Assembly: GCA_019638355.1 (NCBI GenBank)
Contig: JAHBTY010000005.1
Coordinates: 496,001-560,000, forward strand
DNA from: Cyclobacteriaceae bacterium
Lineage (GTDB): Bacteria > Bacteroidota > Bacteroidia > Cytophagales > Cyclobacteriaceae
Direction: 5' to 3'
Length of the DNA stretch: 64,000 bases
Shown: positions 20,628-32,213 of the stretch, piece by piece
Position numbering within the stretch: position 1 is the first letter of the stretch
Layout: each line of letters begins with the position of its first letter
Notes under the pieces: model-generated
Database searches by the model: none
The model's input: the letters and a program-made list of their open reading frames with translations, nothing else
Told to the model about the DNA's origin: nothing
Position numbers and translations under genes: made by a program

Positions 20628-20675
20628 GAAGCAGCAATTATAAGTTGATGTTTGGGTAAATTCTATTTTTACCAG

Positions 20676-23180
20676 ATGGCCGAAGGCGCACTTTTTTATT
20701 CAGAAACTTCCACCTTATTTGCCGAAATTGCATTACCGGTTCCCATTGCCAAGCTATTTACCTATCGTGTTCCGGGTGTATTAGCCAAACATATTAAGCG
20801 CGGGCAACGGGTAATTGTACCCTTCGGTCATAAAAAAATACTTACAGGCCTTGTGGCTAACCTCCATAATCAACCTCCGCAAGAGTATGAAGCAAAGTTG
20901 ATACTGGAACTATTGGACGAAACTGAAATTATCTATGATCAGCAGTTTAAACTATACGATTGGATTGCGCAATATTATATGTGCACCCTGGGCGAAGTAA
21001 TACAAGCGGCCTTACCATCTGGGCTTAAACTTTCCAGCGAATCAATGATACAATTACGTCCTGGTTTTAGCTTGCAAAATTCGGATTTTGATTTTTCGGA
21101 AAAAGAAAGATTGTTATTGAATCGGCTTACTGGTGAAGTACTGTCCTATAGCGAAGCGGCTAAGTTGTTGGATGCCCGTTCCATTTATCATATCCTCAAG
21201 TCACTATCTTCAAAAGAAGCCATTATCTTATTTGAGGAAGTTAAAGAAAAGTACAAACCCAAAACTGAAAAACGCATTCGGCTGCACAGTGCCTTTACTG
21301 GTAAAAAAGCAATAGAGGCTTTATTTGAAAAACTTGCCTCGCGGCCCAAACAAGAAGCCGTTGTGTTGCATTACCTGCAGCATGTGCCTGTTTTTAATGA
21401 TTCGAAATTAAATGAACAGGGCTTAAGCAAAACATCACTGTTACAACACGATATTTCCGAATCATCGTTGACTACACTGCTCAAGCAACGGGTTTTAGAA
21501 GAGTTTGAAGTAATCGTGCCCCGTTTCGGATTTCCGGATACACACAGCACACAACCCATACTGTTAAGCGAGGCACAGGAAGTGGCGCGCAACCAAATAC
21601 TTTCAGCTTTTAAAAATAAAGATGTTGCTTTATTACACGGTGTAACCGGAAGCGGCAAAACTGAAATATACATTGATTTGACCCGCAAAGCGCTAGCAGG
21701 CGGCTCGCAGGTGTTGTTGCTATTACCCGAAATTGCTATTACCACACAAATGGTACAACGCCTTAAAAAAATGTTTGGTAGCGAAATGGGCGTTTACCAT
21801 TCCCGGTTTTCAGACAATGAGCGGGTGGAAGTTTGGAATGGTGTACTTACCGGCAAGTTTCGCTTTGTAGTGGGAGTGCGCTCGGCTGTTTTCTTACCCT
21901 TCGATAACCTGGGGTTAATTTTAGTGGATGAAGAACACGATGCATCGTACAAGCAGCAAGAACCAGCACCGCGTTACCATGCACGCGATGTAGCGCAGGT
22001 AATTGCCCAGCAGCACCATGCCAAAGTAGTGCTGGGCAGCGCTACACCATCCGCAGAATCTTATTACCACGCCACACAAGGTCGATACGGCTATGTGCAA
22101 TTGACACAACGCTTCGGAAATGCCCAACTGCCCGCCATAGTTTTTGCCGATGTTGCCATGGAGCGAAAAAGCAAGACCATGAAGGGCGAGTTTACATCTA
22201 CACTTATTCGCAGTATCGCCAACGCTCTTGAAAAGAAAGCACAAGTTATCTTATTCCAAAACCGAAGAGGCTATTCGCCATTGGTGCAATGTGAAGATTG
22301 CCACTGGGTACCCAAGTGCATTAACTGCTCTGTAAGTCTTACTTACCATCAATACCGCCATGCATTAATTTGCCATTACTGCGGCTATCGTGAAGATTTG
22401 CCCACGCAATGCCCAACGTGCAGTTCCAAACGAATTCTTACCATGGGTTACGGAACCGAAAAACTGGAAGAAGAACTTAAATTTCATTTTCCAAATACCA
22501 ACATCCAGCGTATGGATTTAGACACTACACGCTCGCGCACTGGCTACGAAAATATTATTGAAGCCTTTGAAAAAGGAGAAACTCAAATATTGGTAGGTAC
22601 ACAAATGGTTACAAAAGGCCTGGACTTTGACAGTGTAAGTTTAGTGGGAGTATTTGATACCGATAGAATGATGCACTTCCCTGACTTCCGGAGTTACGAG
22701 CGGGCCTTTCAATTAATTATGCAGGTAAGCGGCAGAGCCGGACGCAGGCAAACAACCGGTACTGTAGTTTTACAAACAGCTAATCCTAAACATGAGTTGT
22801 TTAGCTATGTAGTAACCCATAACATTACTGGTTTTCTGAACGATCAGTTGCGCGATAGGCAATCACACCTTTACCCGCCCTTCACCCGATTAATTGAAAT
22901 AACATTAAAACATACCGATAAAAAAGTAGTGAGTACCGCGGCCACACAATTGGTAAACGTATTGCGAAGCGAACTACCCGGTATAAAAATTATGGGGCCG
23001 GGCGAACCCATGGTTTCTAAAATCCGCAATGAGTTTTTAATGCTCGCTTTACTCAAAATCAGACGCGATCAGGGAAAACTACCCGTGGTAAAACAAACCA
23101 TACTACAAGCAACTAGCCACCTGCAACAAGCCAAAGAGTTTAGGAATGTAAAAGTAGTGTTTGATGTAGATCCGATCTAA
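20676..23180 (+). CDS. priA: Primosomal protein N' (replication restart helicase)
   Basis: An 834-residue PriA, which recognises stalled forks and loads the replicative helicase. The N-terminal 3'-DNA-binding domain (ALPVPIAKLFTYRVPG) is followed by the helicase core: Walker A LLHGVTGSGKTEIY, LPEIAITTQM, LVDEEHDASYKQQ and VLGSATPSAESYY. The eight-cysteine zinc insert runs CEDCHWVPKCINC to CHYCGYREDLPTQCPTC, then GTQMVTKGLDF and VSGRAGRR. The start is taken as the ATG at 20676 (MAEGALFYSE); an in-frame TTG eight codons upstream is less likely. Full length and intact. Confidence 0.96.
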   Translation: MAEGALFYSETSTLFAEIALPVPIAKLFTYRVPGVLAKHIKRGQRVIVPFGHKKILTGLVANLHNQPPQEYEAKLILELLDETEIIYDQQFKLYDWIAQYYMCTLGEVIQAALPSGLKLSSESMIQLRPGFSLQNSDFDFSEKERLLLNRLTGEVLSYSEAAKLLDARSIYHILKSLSSKEAIILFEEVKEKYKPKTEKRIRLHSAFTGKKAIEALFEKLASRPKQEAVVLHYLQHVPVFNDSKLNEQGLSKTSLLQHDISESSLTTLLKQRVLEEFEVIVPRFGFPDTHSTQPILLSEAQEVARNQILSAFKNKDVALLHGVTGSGKTEIYIDLTRKALAGGSQVLLLLPEIAITTQMVQRLKKMFGSEMGVYHSRFSDNERVEVWNGVLTGKFRFVVGVRSAVFLPFDNLGLILVDEEHDASYKQQEPAPRYHARDVAQVIAQQHHAKVVLGSATPSAESYYHATQGRYGYVQLTQRFGNAQLPAIVFADVAMERKSKTMKGEFTSTLIRSIANALEKKAQVILFQNRRGYSPLVQCEDCHWVPKCINCSVSLTYHQYRHALICHYCGYREDLPTQCPTCSSKRILTMGYGTEKLEEELKFHFPNTNIQRMDLDTTRSRTGYENIIEAFEKGETQILVGTQMVTKGLDFDSVSLVGVFDTDRMMHFPDFRSYERAFQLIMQVSGRAGRRQTTGTVVLQTANPKHELFSYVVTHNITGFLNDQLRDRQSHLYPPFTRLIEITLKHTDKKVVSTAATQLVNVLRSELPGIKIMGPGEPMVSKIRNEFLMLALLKIRRDQGKLPVVKQTILQATSHLQQAKEFRNVKVVFDVDPI

Positions 23181-23261
23181 CCTTAAAATTTTTTAATCAG
23201 CTTATCGATAAAGAACAACAAGCGGTATGCACAACAAAAAGATTTAATATTTAAAAAATAG

Positions 23262-23293
23262 TTGATCTACAAAATAATAAATAACTACCTTAG
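23262..23293 (+). promoter_or_regulatory. Probable Bacteroidota promoter of the fluoride-responsive transcript
   Basis: TTG at 23262-23264 and TACCTTAG at 23286-23293 (one mismatch to TAnnTTTG) are spaced 21 bases apart. Transcription would start near 23300, exactly at the 5' edge of the riboswitch aptamer. That fit supports the call. Confidence 0.5.
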
Positions 23294-23300
23294 CGCCTAT

Positions 23301-23356
23301 AATCGGCAATGATGTCTGCCTTGAACCGCCTTAAAAAAGCTGATGACGTCTATTAA
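23301..23356 (+). ncRNA. Fluoride riboswitch (crcB RNA motif)
   Basis: The leader of the CLC gene contains the conserved core of the fluoride (crcB) aptamer: GGCAATGATGTCTGCC (first stem with the ATGATG loop), then TTGAACCGCC, a short A-rich joining region, and GCTGATGACGTCTA. The order AUGRnG...CC, AACCGCC, GCUGAUGRC matches the family consensus as I know it. The aptamer binds F- through Mg2+ and switches on fluoride-export genes. It lies 25 bases before the ATG of a CLC-F type antiporter, the textbook target. Downstream, CTATTAA (23350-23356) can pair with TTAATAG (23371-23377) next to the start codon. Confidence 0.88.
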
Positions 23357-23380
23357 CAAAGCATTGAGCTTTAATAGTAG

Positions 23381-24694
23381 ATGTATTTTAATCAAGGTAC
23401 TATGAACCCTCTCTTTAAAAGTAAAATTGCCCAGGTAGAGCAACTTCCACTTCTTTCGTATTTATTTAAATGGTTATGGCTTTCCACACTTGTCGGATTT
23501 TTGGCAGGGAGTGCATCAGCTTTCTTTTTAGTTAGTTTAGATTGGGCTACTAACTGGCGAGAAAATAATTTATGGATTATCTATTTTCTTCCTTTAGGCG
23601 GCCTGCTTATCGGATTAACCTATCACTACCTGGGTAGCACCGTAGTAAGGGGTAATAATCAACTTCTGGAGGAGTTTCACACCCCCAAACAAATCATTCC
23701 GTTAAAGATGGCACCATTGATTTTATTTGGAACAATTGCCACACATTTTTTTGGTGGTTCTGCAGGAAGAGAAGGCACCGCAGTTCAAATGGGAGGTGCC
23801 ATCGCAGACCAATTTTCCAAATGGTTTAAACTTAAAGCCCGAGACAGAAAGGTGCTCATTATTATGGGGATTAGTGCCGGGTTCGCATCCGTATTTGGCA
23901 CTCCTCTGGCCGGAGCCATTTTTGCATTAGAAGTACTCATAATCGGACGAATGCGCTATGAAGCTATACTACCAAGTTTTTTGGTGGCAATAATTGCAAA
24001 TTATACTTGTAATGCCTGGCAGGTTTCACACACACACTACCACATTCCTTTTGTTCCCGATATGAATCCACAAAATTTTGGCTGGACTATTTTGGCAGGC
24101 ATACTCTTCGGTTTAACTGCGTTGTTATTCTCAAAATCTACAAGCATGTGGAGCCGTTTATTTAACTCAAAAATAAAGTATGCACCCATTAGGCCGCTGA
24201 TCGGAGGAGCCATACTGGCTGTTGTAATTTATTTACTCGGCACTACACAATATATTGGTTTGGGTATCCCTACTATTGTTCAATCTTTTAATACTCCACT
24301 GAACCAGTATGACTTTCTAATTAAAATTGCGTTAACATCGTTTACCCTGGGTGCAGGTTTTAAAGGGGGTGAAGTTACGCCCCTGTTTTTTATAGGAGCT
24401 ACATTAGGAAATGCATTAATTTGGTTTATACCGTTACCAATTGCACTATTAGCAGGTATGGGCTTTGTGGCAGTATTTGCAGGCGCTACCAATACACCAC
24501 TGGCCTGTACGGTAATGGGCATTGAATTGTTTGGTGTAGAAAGTGGACTTTATGTTGGATTAGCCTGCGTGGTAGCCTATCTGTTTTCCGGACATTCCGG
24601 TATTTACTCAGCTCAGATAATCGGAAGCCCCAAACATCTTCTGTACGGGAGGTATAAATCCAAAAAATTAGAAAATCTCAAATCACACAAATAG
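23381..24694 (+). CDS. CLC-family fluoride/proton antiporter (CLC-F type)
   Basis: A 437-residue polytopic inner-membrane protein of the CLC fold. The motif is GGSAGREGTAVQMGGAIAD (about residues 126-144): GREGT in place of the GREGP of chloride CLCs. RGNNQLLEEFH stands where chloride members have GSGIP, and FKGGEVTPLFFIGATLGN follows later. These substitutions are those described for the fluoride-exporting CLC-F clade. A fluoride riboswitch directly upstream gives independent support. The function is therefore F- export in exchange for H+. The start is the ATG at 23381, which the leader hairpin would occlude; a second ATG at 23402 (MNPLFKSK) preceded by AAGG is a fair alternative. Ion preference remains inference from motif and context. 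Confidence 0.88.
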   Translation: MYFNQGTMNPLFKSKIAQVEQLPLLSYLFKWLWLSTLVGFLAGSASAFFLVSLDWATNWRENNLWIIYFLPLGGLLIGLTYHYLGSTVVRGNNQLLEEFHTPKQIIPLKMAPLILFGTIATHFFGGSAGREGTAVQMGGAIADQFSKWFKLKARDRKVLIIMGISAGFASVFGTPLAGAIFALEVLIIGRMRYEAILPSFLVAIIANYTCNAWQVSHTHYHIPFVPDMNPQNFGWTILAGILFGLTALLFSKSTSMWSRLFNSKIKYAPIRPLIGGAILAVVIYLLGTTQYIGLGIPTIVQSFNTPLNQYDFLIKIALTSFTLGAGFKGGEVTPLFFIGATLGNALIWFIPLPIALLAGMGFVAVFAGATNTPLACTVMGIELFGVESGLYVGLACVVAYLFSGHSGIYSAQIIGSPKHLLYGRYKSKKLENLKSHK

Positions 24695-24900
24695 CAAGCT
24701 GGTCGTTCATAATTACAAATATTTCAAATCAACGGAAGTCATTCATGGATTGTTAACAATCATACAACCTGTAAGTAGAAACAACTACTGATCATTCAGC
24801 TTTCACATGTGTAGTTATACTTAATCAGATTAACCTTACCTGTAAATAATTCCAAAAAATTTAGAATTATCTACTATTTTACAACGCTTAATAATATTCC

Positions 24901-25959
24901 ATGAATCCGATTATTTCAGGCATACAACAAGTTGGCATTGGAATTCCTGATGTACAAGAGGCATTTACCTGGTACCGTAGGTTATTTGGCATGGATATTA
25001 AAGTGTTTGACGATGAAGCCGAAGCTAACTTGATGCTTCCTTACACCGGAGGTATGCCACACAAGCGCCATGCTATACTTGCCCTGAATATCCGAGGCGG
25101 TGGTGGTTTTGAAATATGGCAATATAAAAGTCGCGAACCGGTTTTACCTGCTTTTGAAATTCAATTGGGCGACACCGGAATTTTTGCTACCCGTATGAAA
25201 TCGTCTGATATATTACAAACTTATAATTTCATTAAATCTACCAATACCGAAATTTTAGGCGAATTAAATCAGGCACCGGATGGTACCGAGCATTTTTTTG
25301 TGCGCGATCCGTACGGAAATATTTTTGAAATAGTAGAGGCAACCGATTGGTTTGGAAATGCAAGCTCGCACACAGGCGGCCCTGGTGGCTGTATGATTGG
25401 TGTTACCGATGTGGAGCAAGCATTAAAATTTTATGCAACCGTATTAGGATATGATACTGTGCTGTACGATAAAACCGGAATATTCAGTGACCTTGCCTGC
25501 TTGCCAGGCGGGCAATCAAAAGTAAGGCGTGTATTGATAGAACATTCGCAACCAAGGGCCGGAAGTTTTTCAAAGTTATTGGGTAGTAGTAAACTTGAAT
25601 TGGTTTCAGTACAAGACAGAGTTTGCCGAAAAATTTACGAAAACCGTTATTGGGGCGACCGTGGTTTTATTCATTTATGCTTTGACATAAACGGAATGTC
25701 GCGCATGAAAGCATTGTGCGAAAAAAATGGCTATCCCTTCACGGTAGATAGTTCGGGCAGTTTTGATATGGGCGAGGCTGCAGGGTACTTCAGTTATGTT
25801 GAAGATCCGGATGGCACCCTAATTGAGTTTGTAGAAACTCACCGCATTCCTATTCTTAAAAAAATAGGCTGGTACCTGGATCTGCGAAAACGCGATCCGC
25901 AAAAATCGCTTCCCAACTGGATGCTGAAAGCCCTTTCGCTTAATCGCGTTAAAGATTAA
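24901..25959 (+). CDS. Two-domain VOC (glyoxalase/dioxygenase-like) protein
   Basis: A 352-residue protein made of two VOC modules. The first (about residues 5-150) begins ISGIQQVGIGIPDVQEAFTW and ends EHFFVRDPYGNIFEIVEATD. The second (about 160-325) begins GCMIGVTDVEQALKFYATVL and ends YFSYVEDPDGTLIEFVETH. Each ends in the metal-ligand-type Glu segment. The His ligand of the second module is likely in DRGFIHLCFDI. The family includes lactoylglutathione lyases, extradiol dioxygenases and epimerases, and the reaction cannot be assigned. Stand-alone gene with 200 non-coding bases upstream. Confidence 0.82.
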   Translation: MNPIISGIQQVGIGIPDVQEAFTWYRRLFGMDIKVFDDEAEANLMLPYTGGMPHKRHAILALNIRGGGGFEIWQYKSREPVLPAFEIQLGDTGIFATRMKSSDILQTYNFIKSTNTEILGELNQAPDGTEHFFVRDPYGNIFEIVEATDWFGNASSHTGGPGGCMIGVTDVEQALKFYATVLGYDTVLYDKTGIFSDLACLPGGQSKVRRVLIEHSQPRAGSFSKLLGSSKLELVSVQDRVCRKIYENRYWGDRGFIHLCFDINGMSRMKALCEKNGYPFTVDSSGSFDMGEAAGYFSYVEDPDGTLIEFVETHRIPILKKIGWYLDLRKRDPQKSLPNWMLKALSLNRVKD

Positions 25960-27869: not shown

Positions 27870-28955
27870 ATGAAAACCATAATTTTAGTTATTTGCCTGG
27901 CCACGTTTATGTTATTAGGGTGTGGGCATCATCAAACTCATAATCAGGAAACAACCACGTTTGTGGTAACACAACCTGTAAAAACCGATACTACCCTACA
28001 TCAAAGCTATGTTTGCCAGATTCGGTCCATCCAACATATTGAACTAAGAGCATTAGAGAAAGGCTACCTGCAACACATTTTTGTTGATGAAGGTAAACTG
28101 GTAAAGAAAGGCCAGTTATTATTTCAGATTTTGCCGGTAGTTTACCAGGCCGAAGCACAAAAAGCACATGCCGAAGTAAGCTTTGCTGAGATTGAATACC
28201 TGAACACCAAGGCTCTTGCCGATAGTAACATCGTATCTAAAAATGAACTGGCTTTGGCAAAAGCTAAATTAGAAAAGGCGCAGGCCGACTTTCAATTAGC
28301 CAAAGCACACTTAAGTTTTACAGAAATCCGGGCTCCATTCGATGGAATTGTAGGTAGATTTAATGATGTGCGCGTTGGCAGTTTACTCGATGAAGGTGAG
28401 TTGCTAACCACCCTATCCGACAATAACAAAATGTGGGTTTATTTTAATGTGCCCGAGGCCGAGTATATCAACTACACCACTCAACGCAACAGTGAAACCA
28501 CTGCCGTTGTAAGACTTCAAATGGCCAACAATCAACTTTTTGAACAGGATGGGATAATTGAAACAATTGAAGCTGATTTCAATAACGAAACCGGTAACAT
28601 TGCCTTTCGGGCAACATTTAATAACCCCAAGCGCCTGCTGCGCCATGGCGAAACCGGAAACATCTTTATGTACACACCTATTAAAAATGCGGTGCTGATA
28701 CCACAATCGGCTACGTACGAGGTGCTGGATAAAAAATTTGTATATGTGGTTAAAGACGATAATACGGTGCTGGCAAAAGAGATAAAGATTCAAAACGAAA
28801 TGCCACACGTGTATATCGTATCGGCTGGCATTAGCCCTGCTGATAAAATTCTGGTAGAAGGAATAAGAAAGGTTAAGAATGGCGATAAAATCAATATTCA
28901 ACAAAAACCTTTTTACGCTATTCTGCACGAAATGCAGAACCTGAGAGCTGAATAA
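27870..28955 (+). CDS. RND efflux periplasmic adaptor (membrane fusion) lipoprotein
   Basis: A 361-residue adaptor with lipobox LLGC (Cys18). Domain order is typical: a barrel-sandwich hybrid with half motifs QHIELRALEKGYLQHIFVDE and RAPFDGIVGRFND, a helical hairpin between them (about residues 90-150, KAHAEVSFAEIEYLNTKALA onward), a beta-barrel domain (NKMWVYFNVPEAEY), and the membrane-proximal domain (VLIPQSATYEVLDKKFVYVV). It links the inner-membrane pump to the outer-membrane channel. First gene of the three-gene operon, 21 bases before the pump gene. Confidence 0.93.
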   Translation: MKTIILVICLATFMLLGCGHHQTHNQETTTFVVTQPVKTDTTLHQSYVCQIRSIQHIELRALEKGYLQHIFVDEGKLVKKGQLLFQILPVVYQAEAQKAHAEVSFAEIEYLNTKALADSNIVSKNELALAKAKLEKAQADFQLAKAHLSFTEIRAPFDGIVGRFNDVRVGSLLDEGELLTTLSDNNKMWVYFNVPEAEYINYTTQRNSETTAVVRLQMANNQLFEQDGIIETIEADFNNETGNIAFRATFNNPKRLLRHGETGNIFMYTPIKNAVLIPQSATYEVLDKKFVYVVKDDNTVLAKEIKIQNEMPHVYIVSAGISPADKILVEGIRKVKNGDKINIQQKPFYAILHEMQNLRAE

Positions 28956-28976
28956 GTAACTCTAAACCACTTACAC

Positions 28977-31900
28977 ATGTTTAGCAAATTCATTCAACGT
29001 CCGGTTCTTGCTATTTCTATTTCGTTGGCAATCGTTTTTCTGGGAATACTCGCCATCCAAACAAGACCCATATCACAGTTTCCGGATATAGCGCCACCGC
29101 GCGTAAATATCTTTATTGCTTACCCGGGTGCCAGCGCCCAGATTTTAGTTGAGTCAACTTTAATTCCATTGGAACGCGCCATTAACGGAGTACAAGGCAT
29201 GCTGTACCTTACTTCCGATGCAACCAGTGCTGGTGAGGCAACCGTGCAAATTATTTTTGAACCGGGTACCGACCCGAACGCGGCCGTAGTTAATGTTAAA
29301 ACGCGGGTAGATGCAATTATGAATAACCTGCCGCCTTTAGTGCAACGCGAGGGTATCATCATTACACCTATTCAACCCAGTATGCTCATGTATGTAAACC
29401 TTTTTAGTACCGATAAAAATGCGGACGAAAAGTTTTTATACAATTACTCCAACGTACACATTATACCCGAGCTGCAACGCATAAAAGGAATGGGCCGTGC
29501 CCAGATACTGGGTAGCCGCACATTTGCTATGCGTATCTGGCTTAAGCCCGATCGGATGCGTGCCTACAACGTAGCCACCGAAGAAGTAATGAAGGCCATG
29601 GAAGACCAAAGCCTTATCGGACGGCCCGGAAGGTTGGGGCAGGCTTCGGGTAAAACAGCACAATCATTAGAATATACCTTAAGCTATAAAGGCCGCTTTA
29701 ACAAACCCGAAGAGTATGAGAACATTATCATTCGGGCAAATGCGGAAGGTGAAATTCTTAAACTGAAAGATATTGCCGAAGTTGAATTGGGTAGCGAATT
29801 CTTTGATATCTACTCGAACAAAGATGGATACGCATCAGCCTCCATTGTATTGAAACAAAATTTTGGTACCAATGCCAGTGATGTAATTGCCAAAACAAAG
29901 GCAAAGCTGGAAGAACTCCGCAAGGATTTTCCTCCGGGAATGGATTACGAAATAAACTACGATGTATCGAAATTTGTAAATGCCTCTATCGACAAAGTAA
30001 TTCACACATTGGTTGAAGCGTTTATCCTGGTAGCGCTGGTGGTATTCATATTTCTGGGCGATTGGCGCTCTACGTTAATCCCCATCATTGCAGTGCCCGT
30101 CTCATTAATTGGCGCCTTCATCTTTATGCAGATGCTGGGCCTAACCATTAACCTGATTACACTGTTTGCTTTGGTACTTGCTATTGGTATTGTGGTGGAC
30201 GATGCCATTGTGGTAGTGGAAGCTGTGCACGCAAAAATGCACGAGGAAAATATTTCTTCCTTTAGTGCTGTTAAAAAGGTGTTGGGCGAAATAAGCGGTG
30301 CTGTAATTGCAATTACATTAATTATGACAGCTGTGTTTGTACCAATTGCCTTCATGACGGGACCTGTTGGTGTATTCTACCGCCAGTTCTCAATTACAAT
30401 GGCCAGCTCGATTATTCTTTCCGGTATTGTGGCTCTTACGCTAACACCGGTGCTATGTGCTATGATTCTCAAAAATCATCATGGCAGAAACAAGAAAACC
30501 CCGGTTCAAGTATTTATTGATTGGTTCAACCGGGTATTTGAAAAAGTTACAGGCAAATACACCAACCTGCTGCAACACATTGTAAATCGCAGGTTAGTAA
30601 CCTTTGGTTTACTGGCCCTTTTTGCTTTTGGCATTGTCGGTATCAACCAGCAATTACCTTCCGGCTTTATACCCAACGAAGATCAGGGACAAATCTATGC
30701 GATCATTCAAACACCCCCCGGAAGCACCTTAGAACGCACCAATGACGTATCGCACCAATTACAAGCCATTGCCGAAGAAATTGAGGACATTCAATCTGTA
30801 ACTTCATTGGCCGGATATGAAATTCTTACCGAAGGCCGTGGTTCCAATGCCGGAACTTGCCTGATCAACCTTAAAGATTGGGAGCATCGTAAACATTCAG
30901 TAAAAGAAGTTATTGAAGAGTTGGAAGAAAAAACCAAAAACCTGGGAGCTGTAGTGGAGTACTTTGAACCTCCTGCTGTACCAGGATACGGTTCATCGGA
31001 TGGTTTTTCGCTGCGGATGTTGGATAAGAACAGCACCATCGACTACCACGAATTTGATAAGATCAACACCGAATTTATGGATGCGTTGAAAAAACGCAAA
31101 GAGCTAACAGGCCTTTTCACGTTCTACGCAGCTAATTATCCACAATATGAAATTGTAATTGATAACGAAAAAGCCATGCAGAAAGGCGTTTCTATTGGAG
31201 CCGCCATGGAAAACCTGAACATACTTATAGGAAGTACCTACGAACAAGGGTTCACACGATTTAACACTTTCTTTAAAGTATATACCCAGGCTGCACCGGA
31301 ATACCGCAGGCTGCCCACCGATGTATTAAATCTGTTTGTAAAAAACGATCGGGATGAAATGGTTCCCTACTCTTCTTTTGTAACACTTGTAAAAAAACAA
31401 GGACCAAACGAAATCACGCGTTTCAATCTTTATACATCATCGGCCATTCGTGGATTGCCTGCACCTGGCTATACCACCGGTGATGCCATTGACGCTATAA
31501 AAGAAGTGGCTCAACAAACATTACCAAACGGATATGACATTGCCTGGGAAGGCTTATCGTACGATGAAGCCCACCGCGGTAATGAAGCATTGTACATTTT
31601 TATTATTGTTATAATATTCGTTTACCTGGTACTTGCCTCGCAATACGAAAGCTTCATCATTCCGTTTGCAGTATTGTTATCCTTACCGGCCGGAATTTTT
31701 GGAGCGTTTTTGCTTTTAAAACTAATGGGGCTTGCCAATGATATTTATGCCCAAATAGGATTAATCATGTTAGTTGGGTTGCTTGGCAAAAACGCAGTGT
31801 TGATTGTAGAGTTTGCTGTGCAAAAACAAAATCAAGGAATCAGTATTGTATTAGCAGCCATCGAAGGCGCCAAGGTCCGCTTCCGCCCTATCTTAATGAC

Positions 31901-32213
31901 ATCCTTTGCCTTTATTGCGGGATTAATTCCGTTGGTAAGGGCAACCGGGGCCGGTGCGGTTGGCAACAGAACCATTGGCGCTTCTGCATTGGGTGGAATG
32001 TTAATGGGAACTTTATTTGGTGTAATCATCGTACCCGGACTTTATTACATCTTCGCCAAACTTGCCGAAGGTAAAAGGTTAATTAAAGATGAAGACTTAA
32101 TACCATTTACCGAAGAGATGATTGAGCACCACACACATGCAACCATGCTTAAGAAAATTCAAAAACTTCAGTTGCTATTGAAAATAGCCAGACGAAAAAA
32201 AGAAATAAAATGA
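28977..32213 (+). CDS. RND multidrug efflux transporter (HAE1/AcrB type)
   Basis: A 1078-residue inner-membrane proton/drug antiporter of normal HAE1 length. Recognisable segments are FIQRPVLAISISLAIVFLG (TM1), ISQFPDIAPPRVNIFIAYPG, VNVKTRVDAIMNNLPP, GIVVDDAIVVVEAVH in TM4 with the paired Asp residues of the proton relay, TPVLCAMIL, PSGFIPNEDQGQIYAIIQTP starting the second half, GLLGKNAVLIVEFA with the relay Lys, and RFRPILMTSFAFIAGLIPL. The substrate range cannot be read from sequence. It overlaps the outer-membrane gene by four bases (ATGA). Confidence 0.95.
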   Translation: MFSKFIQRPVLAISISLAIVFLGILAIQTRPISQFPDIAPPRVNIFIAYPGASAQILVESTLIPLERAINGVQGMLYLTSDATSAGEATVQIIFEPGTDPNAAVVNVKTRVDAIMNNLPPLVQREGIIITPIQPSMLMYVNLFSTDKNADEKFLYNYSNVHIIPELQRIKGMGRAQILGSRTFAMRIWLKPDRMRAYNVATEEVMKAMEDQSLIGRPGRLGQASGKTAQSLEYTLSYKGRFNKPEEYENIIIRANAEGEILKLKDIAEVELGSEFFDIYSNKDGYASASIVLKQNFGTNASDVIAKTKAKLEELRKDFPPGMDYEINYDVSKFVNASIDKVIHTLVEAFILVALVVFIFLGDWRSTLIPIIAVPVSLIGAFIFMQMLGLTINLITLFALVLAIGIVVDDAIVVVEAVHAKMHEENISSFSAVKKVLGEISGAVIAITLIMTAVFVPIAFMTGPVGVFYRQFSITMASSIILSGIVALTLTPVLCAMILKNHHGRNKKTPVQVFIDWFNRVFEKVTGKYTNLLQHIVNRRLVTFGLLALFAFGIVGINQQLPSGFIPNEDQGQIYAIIQTPPGSTLERTNDVSHQLQAIAEEIEDIQSVTSLAGYEILTEGRGSNAGTCLINLKDWEHRKHSVKEVIEELEEKTKNLGAVVEYFEPPAVPGYGSSDGFSLRMLDKNSTIDYHEFDKINTEFMDALKKRKELTGLFTFYAANYPQYEIVIDNEKAMQKGVSIGAAMENLNILIGSTYEQGFTRFNTFFKVYTQAAPEYRRLPTDVLNLFVKNDRDEMVPYSSFVTLVKKQGPNEITRFNLYTSSAIRGLPAPGYTTGDAIDAIKEVAQQTLPNGYDIAWEGLSYDEAHRGNEALYIFIIVIIFVYLVLASQYESFIIPFAVLLSLPAGIFGAFLLLKLMGLANDIYAQIGLIMLVGLLGKNAVLIVEFAVQKQNQGISIVLAAIEGAKVRFRPILMTSFAFIAGLIPLVRATGAGAVGNRTIGASALGGMLMGTLFGVIIVPGLYYIFAKLAEGKRLIKDEDLIPFTEEMIEHHTHATMLKKIQKLQLLLKIARRKKEIK

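Follow-up and report, generated by a model that had tools for sequence, protein, structure and literature searches.

A fluoride riboswitch directly before a predicted CLC-F antiporter gene in a Cyclobacteriaceae genome, with a predicted rival hairpin and possible translational control

CLC antiporters under the control of riboswitches were reportedly described by Stockbridge et al. 2012, and the locus analysed here has the same arrangement without essential difference, that is, a fluoride riboswitch directly before a CLC-F gene. The locus lies in a 64,000-nucleotide stretch of the genome of a Cyclobacteriaceae bacterium (the window; all positions count from its first letter). According to the sections of PMC7266159 that deal with the subject, the products of eriC genes controlled by fluoride riboswitches are fluoride exporters, and the riboswitch itself (crcB motif) is credited there to Baker et al. 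2012. The corresponding sections of PMC11139923 name two bacterial kinds of fluoride exporter and report a fluoride riboswitch with about 30% of CLC-Fs. As far as these sections of PMC7266159 and PMC11139923 go, CLC-F under the control of a fluoride riboswitch is established knowledge, of which the window holds an ordinary example, and the understanding of the system is unchanged by it. A sequence-only reading had proposed a fluoride riboswitch directly upstream of a CLC-F type antiporter, and the family assignments of both hold (49.4 bits for the riboswitch family RF01734; 215 bits for the solved CLC-F 6d0j compared with 40 bits for ClcA), so that we give this explanation as a whole a probability of about 95%.

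The aptamer at 23296-23359 on the forward strand matches the Rfam covariance model of the fluoride riboswitch (RF01734, crcB motif) over its full length (model positions 1-64 of 64) with 49.4 bits, and the gathering cut-off is 34 bits. The E value of 1.1e-10, computed over the window, rules out a chance match. The core elements that had been read in the leader are present, namely ATGATG in a GGC/GCC stem, AACCGCC and GCTGATGACGTC, and the covariance model, which had been proposed as the arbiter, recognized the leader well above threshold. A search of the whole 4.49 Mb genome with RF01734 found no second fluoride aptamer, 23296-23359 being the sole match. As a member of its family, the aptamer would bind fluoride together with Mg ions and thereby affect expression.

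The window aptamer also has an intact pseudoknot, in which GATGT in the loop of the first stem (23311..23315, forward strand) pairs with ACGTC (23346..23350, forward strand), and all five of five pairs form. The structure line of RF01734, and with it the score, does not include the pseudoknot, and the pairing was therefore read off for 54 aptamers above the cut-off, 23 from 194 genomes of the order, 28 from 395 genomes of the phylum and three from 58 genomes of the genus; in the phylum sample, loci were obtained for 30 of the 52 above-cut-off matches, two of which were already included, so that 28 were added. Five of five pairs form in 44 of the 54 aptamers, the remaining 10 have four, and the two strands covary by paired changes, the types including GGAGT/ACTCC, GGTGT/ACGCC, GGTGT/ACACC, GATAT/ATGTC, GGCAT/ATGCC and the GATGT/ACGTC of the window. 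The last of these is uncommon, as two of the 54 aptamers have it and one more has GATGT/GCGTC. The number 54 overstates the independent cases, because the leaders are mutually related and near copies are included (L016/L017 and L019/L020). Eight sub-cut-off matches were examined as well, of which five could be parsed, with pairing at 0 to 4 of the five positions, and three could not. Compared with the RF01734 family, the window thus has the whole aptamer consensus and the pseudoknot directly before an exporter gene, but its pseudoknot bases are uncommon and it probably has no terminator platform.

Promoters of the Bacteroidota type consist of a TTG -33 element and a TAnnTTTG -7 box. A -7-like box with one mismatch to this consensus, TACCTTAG, is found at 23286..23293 (forward strand), and TTG at 23262..23264 (forward strand), 21 nt upstream of it, is a possible -33 element. 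For 40 of the 54 aptamers, a box with at most one mismatch to TAnnTTTG occurs between -30 and +5 relative to the aptamer start, compared with 327 of 1856 control stretches, and the earlier proposal that a promoter puts the start of transcription at the 5' edge of the aptamer is plausible. A plain sigma-70 scan returned three weak sites (9 of 12 matches) farther upstream (shuffle mean 1.2). The first in-frame ATG of the open reading frame is at 23381, and the start codon is more likely the ATG at 23402 than this one. The ATG at 23402 is preceded at a distance of 4 nt by AAGG (23394..23397, forward strand), which reads like a ribosome-binding motif, and AAGG also stands just upstream of the corresponding ATG in L014 and L077, which are the two nearest of the aptamer-bearing relatives; the upstream ATG of L077, as read from the sequence, runs into a stop codon.

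The 3' strand of the pseudoknot has a second possible partner. ACGTC is also the foot of a predicted rival (OFF) hairpin of 39 nt at 23346-23384 (forward strand; local fold of -14.6 kcal/mol), in which ACGTCTATTA pairs with TAGTAGATGT, the inner stem is AAAGC/GCTTT, and the 3' arm contains a second GATGT. Pseudoknot and hairpin use the same strand, and formation of the hairpin undoes the pseudoknot. The following mechanism can be envisaged. Transcription would begin at or near the 5' edge of the aptamer. In the absence of fluoride, the downstream GAUGU would capture the pseudoknot strand ACGUC in the 39-nt hairpin, the aptamer would be undone, and the ribosome-binding region adjoining the hairpin would be poorly accessible. 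With Mg-bound fluoride, the pseudoknot would keep ACGUC, the hairpin would be blocked, and the CLC-F antiporter would be made (an ON switch) and would expel fluoride in exchange for protons. The switch would govern the sole fluoride exporter detected in the genome.

The predicted folds of the window leader are in line with this mechanism at the ribosome-binding motif. AAGG is paired with TGCCTTGA of the aptamer in the predicted free fold, and its mean unpaired probability is predicted to rise from 0.01 to 0.37 once the pseudoknot strands are barred from pairing. The bases at the favoured start codon, probed one base late, are predicted to be largely free of pairing in either state (0.81 and 0.72), and therefore only AAGG and the upstream ATG would change. 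A complementarity to AAGG like that of the window can also be read in L014 and L077; it may be due to chance, since the consensus of the aptamer comes close to CCTT and start codons are commonly preceded by AAGG.

For comparison, the 54 leaders were folded with 70 nt of downstream sequence and regarded as switch-like when at least three of four bases of the pseudoknot strand were paired downstream. This was found for 34 of the 54, compared with 17.1 (sd 3.1) expected with the downstream sequence shuffled, and the excess is seen both in the leaders of CLC-F genes (21 of 36 compared with 9.4, sd 2.4) and in the other leaders (13 of 18 compared with 7.8, sd 2.0). The minimum-energy fold lacks the rival pairing in 20 of the 54 leaders, 15 of them among the 36 CLC-F leaders. 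A duplex test gave p values of at most 0.05 in 24 of the 54 (0.030 for the window), with the core mis-set in two leaders, L005 and L014. When the downstream parts were swapped between loci, the mean energy was -7.2 compared with -9.6 for the own partners, and the own partner was among the top three for only 15 of the 54, with a median rank of 10 (again with the core mis-set in two leaders). Taken alone, the window leader is a moderate case, as 32% of its shuffles are switch-like.

Both transcriptional and translational control are known for fluoride riboswitches; in the portion of PMC13273304 concerned, 323 of 1901 were functional in a transcription assay and two were used as translational controls. 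The alternative that survives best retains the riboswitch and the exporter, but assumes intrinsic termination as in the crcB riboswitch of Bacillus cereus, in that the hairpin at 23346-23384 and the following AUUUU would stop RNA polymerase when fluoride is absent. The hairpin takes in the pseudoknot strand in the same way as the terminator of the transcriptional switches described in the relevant part of PMC11077080, and a run of at least five T stands at the hairpin end in 6 of the 34 switch-like leaders, all six among the 13 that do not belong to CLC-F genes. Termination does occur in the group, because in L015 and L032, two CLC-F leaders outside the 21 switch-like ones, the hairpin is directly followed by 7-8 T. 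Of the two marks of a terminating riboswitch of the B. cereus type, a terminator hairpin overlapping the pseudoknot strand and a U-tract after it, the window has an overlapping hairpin, followed by AUUUU only, the longest T-run being 4, and a terminator scan of 23150-23500 found no terminator-like site. In the near relative L077 the hairpin is present as well, with ATTATATAAAC after it. Translational control is favoured because none of the 21 switch-like CLC-F leaders has a T-run of five, and the leaders of the CLC-F group as a whole point in this direction. For the window, control would be exerted at translation rather than at termination with somewhat better than even odds, and termination retains a substantial chance, albeit one clearly short of even.

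The gene behind the leader (23402..24694, forward strand) is predicted to encode a CLC-F fluoride/proton antiporter of 430 amino acids from the favoured start, or of 437 from the ATG at 23381. Its product belongs to the CLC superfamily (PF00654, 266.4 bits with a Pfam cut-off of 24.8), and in a sequence comparison with solved structures the three CLC-F entries reached 212-215 bits over residues 34-412, with 215 for 6d0j, compared with 40 for the best ClcA entry. The text of PMC11139923 identifies the organism of 6d0j as Enterococcus casseliflavus and gives GNNLI/GMGLI, GREGT/V and GEVTP as the signatures of CLC-F. The window protein contains GNNQL at 84-88, the last letter of which is unlike that of the printed GNNLI, GREGT at 122-126 and GGEVTP at 322-327 (numbering from the Met at 23402); the GREGT and GNNQLLEE motifs that had been pointed out from the letters are both in the open reading frame ending at 24694. 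M79, E118 and E318, which the pertinent part of PMC12035849 names as residues of the solved CLC-F, align in 6d0j with Asn85, Glu124 and Glu324 of the window protein. The likeness to 6d0j thus includes the GREG and GGEVTP motifs and both glutamates, but the window has GNN where 6d0j has GMN and GREGT where 6d0j has GREGV, and the listing in PMC11139923 includes both variants for CLC-F. As a member of this family, the protein would exchange fluoride for protons.

The possibility was considered that the gene encodes a chloride CLC that merely happens to lie behind a fluoride aptamer. The relatives on plasmids are labelled as voltage-gated chloride channel family proteins in 9 of the 15 records listed, and the only NCBIfam models that match at all are of the ClcA and ClcB types. 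None of the NCBIfam CLC models reaches its cut-off for the window protein, and no CLC-F model was named for it; the sub-cut-off scores are far too low (102 with a cut-off of 482, 78.5 with 350 and 70.2 with 425). The CLC-F signatures and the large difference between the scores of 6d0j and ClcA also argue against a chloride CLC, as does the phylogeny that the earlier reading had called for. A tree of 58 CLC rows contains a split with support of 100/98, which separates 47 rows that include the window protein and 6d0j from 11 that include ClcA and the second CLC of the genome, that is, the protein groups with the solved CLC-F and away from the chloride CLCs; the rows of 6d0j and ClcA are fragments on long branches, and their exact places are therefore unsure. 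On the NCBIfam scores, the comparison of 6d0j with ClcA and the tree, a chloride CLC was rejected as highly improbable. A function in fluoride resistance is thereby assigned to a gene of a type that is often labelled as a chloride channel.

The second CLC gene of the genome, the only other one, lies on a different contig, and no match to CrcB/Fluc (PF02537) was found in the genome. With one CLC-F and no CrcB, the window gene is therefore the sole exporter detected of the two bacterial kinds named in the sections of PMC11139923 consulted. CrcB/Fluc channels have the same task and stand behind the same riboswitch in 11 of the 28 further loci of the phylum, but as proteins they are unrelated to CLC-F.

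In the order, 23 aptamers above the cut-off were found in 20 of 194 genomes, and 22 of them have a CLC-F open reading frame on the same strand within 1.5 kb downstream; the exception is L013, where an MFS gene comes next and CLC-F follows about 3.2 kb on. Of the 28 further loci of the phylum, 13 lead to CLC-F, 11 to CrcB (each of these 11 by Pfam), one to a Na+/H+ exchanger and two to dynamin-family GTPases, and one is without an assigned gene. In L092 the aptamer precedes CrcB. Seen from the side of the gene, an above-cut-off aptamer is present at 10 of 30 CLC-F loci examined, which are the closest relatives and hence an uneven sample. In 19 loci none was found at E values up to 1, and L045 has only 22 nt upstream; a divergent aptamer missed by Rfam before these genes was thus sought in the 19 testable loci without success.

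That the window aptamer is a decayed remnant without function is scarcely credible, for although relatives do have aptamers without an intact gene close behind (L027 and L095, with sub-cut-off scores of 26.5 and 33.7 bits), that of the window matches the model from end to end and clears the cut-off by a wide margin, all five pairs of its pseudoknot form, and a full-length open transporter gene lies downstream. These two matches (L027, G015:C35:106083-106160 minus; L095, G623:C19:119561-119629) are possibly remnants of lost exporters. An open reading frame for an EamA-type transporter lies just upstream of the aptamer in L027 (by Pfam) and in L013 (G160:C11; by sequence likeness only).

Several loci show other neighbourhoods. 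In L085 (G367:C40:38021-38083 minus, 50.2 bits) the aptamer lies 26 nt before a gene for a dynamin-family GTPase (Dynamin_N, 97.2 bits), and in L075 (G344:C4:1751-1813, 55.6 bits) such a gene (Dynamin_N, 76.6 bits) follows after an open reading frame of 90 codons; among the papers searched, none names both fluoride riboswitch and dynamin. In L024, from the same genus (G144:C22:192415-192475 minus), a sub-cut-off aptamer of 31.1 bits is followed after about 30 nt by a DUF2490 gene (95.9 bits), and the complement of the aptamer 3' strand is found downstream. A general pairing of the riboswitch with DUF2490 was rejected, as among the six genomes of the genus with an aptamer match the adjacency occurs in G144 only; the DUF2490 matches in the other aptamer-bearing genomes lie on a different contig. 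In L006 (G185:C27:11791-11927), the aptamer that precedes the CLC-F gene has an inverted copy of its 3' half immediately next to it (28.4 bits), and the repeat adjoins a gene of the phage integrase family.

Of 58 genomes of the genus, 50 have CrcB/Fluc above the cut-off and two have CLC-F (>500 bits), namely the window's genome and G581, both of which are without CrcB; neither exporter was found in six genomes, some of them incomplete. The glyoxalase-family gene downstream is 92% identical between the window's genome and G581, and the CLC-Fs are 61% identical. The CLC-F of G581 groups with full support with L081, which comes from a different family of the class, in the 58-row tree, and the AU test rejects a tree in which the two congeneric CLC-Fs are constrained together (p 3e-44; the pair was picked with the tree already known). 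The two CLC-Fs of the genus belong to different lineages. The bases of the pseudoknot agree with the tree, with GATGT in the window, L014 and L077 and GGTGT in G581 and L081, but GGTGT is a widespread type.

What precedes the glyoxalase-family gene differs among congeners (window 20652-25959 compared with L164 of G581 and L165 of G585): in the window it is the riboswitch and CLC-F, in G581 a CLC-F of another lineage, and in G585 a methyltransferase gene between priA and the glyoxalase-family gene; in G581, priA does not adjoin CLC-F within the 11 kb read. The site is thus a variable one, at which sensor and transporter seem to have arrived as a unit; the comparison suggests that the two are inherited together. 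Relatives of the CLC-F of up to 70% identity are found on plasmids, the best in Emticicia and Hymenobacter, although many of the 292 records may be other CLCs, and named relatives are an uncultured Bacteroidaceae bacterium (63% identity) and Ochrovirga pacifica (55%). It is conceivable, though we would hold it only tentatively and at a little under even odds, that aptamer, translation-governing hairpin and CLC-F travel together in this phylum as a prefabricated cassette for fluoride defence, that two lineages of it have replaced CrcB/Fluc before the same glyoxalase-family gene within one genus, and that the CLC-F switch is translational and not terminating.

About 3 kb downstream of the locus and on the same strand, at 27870-32213 of the window, lies an RND efflux pair consisting of an HlyD-type fusion protein and an AcrB-family pump.
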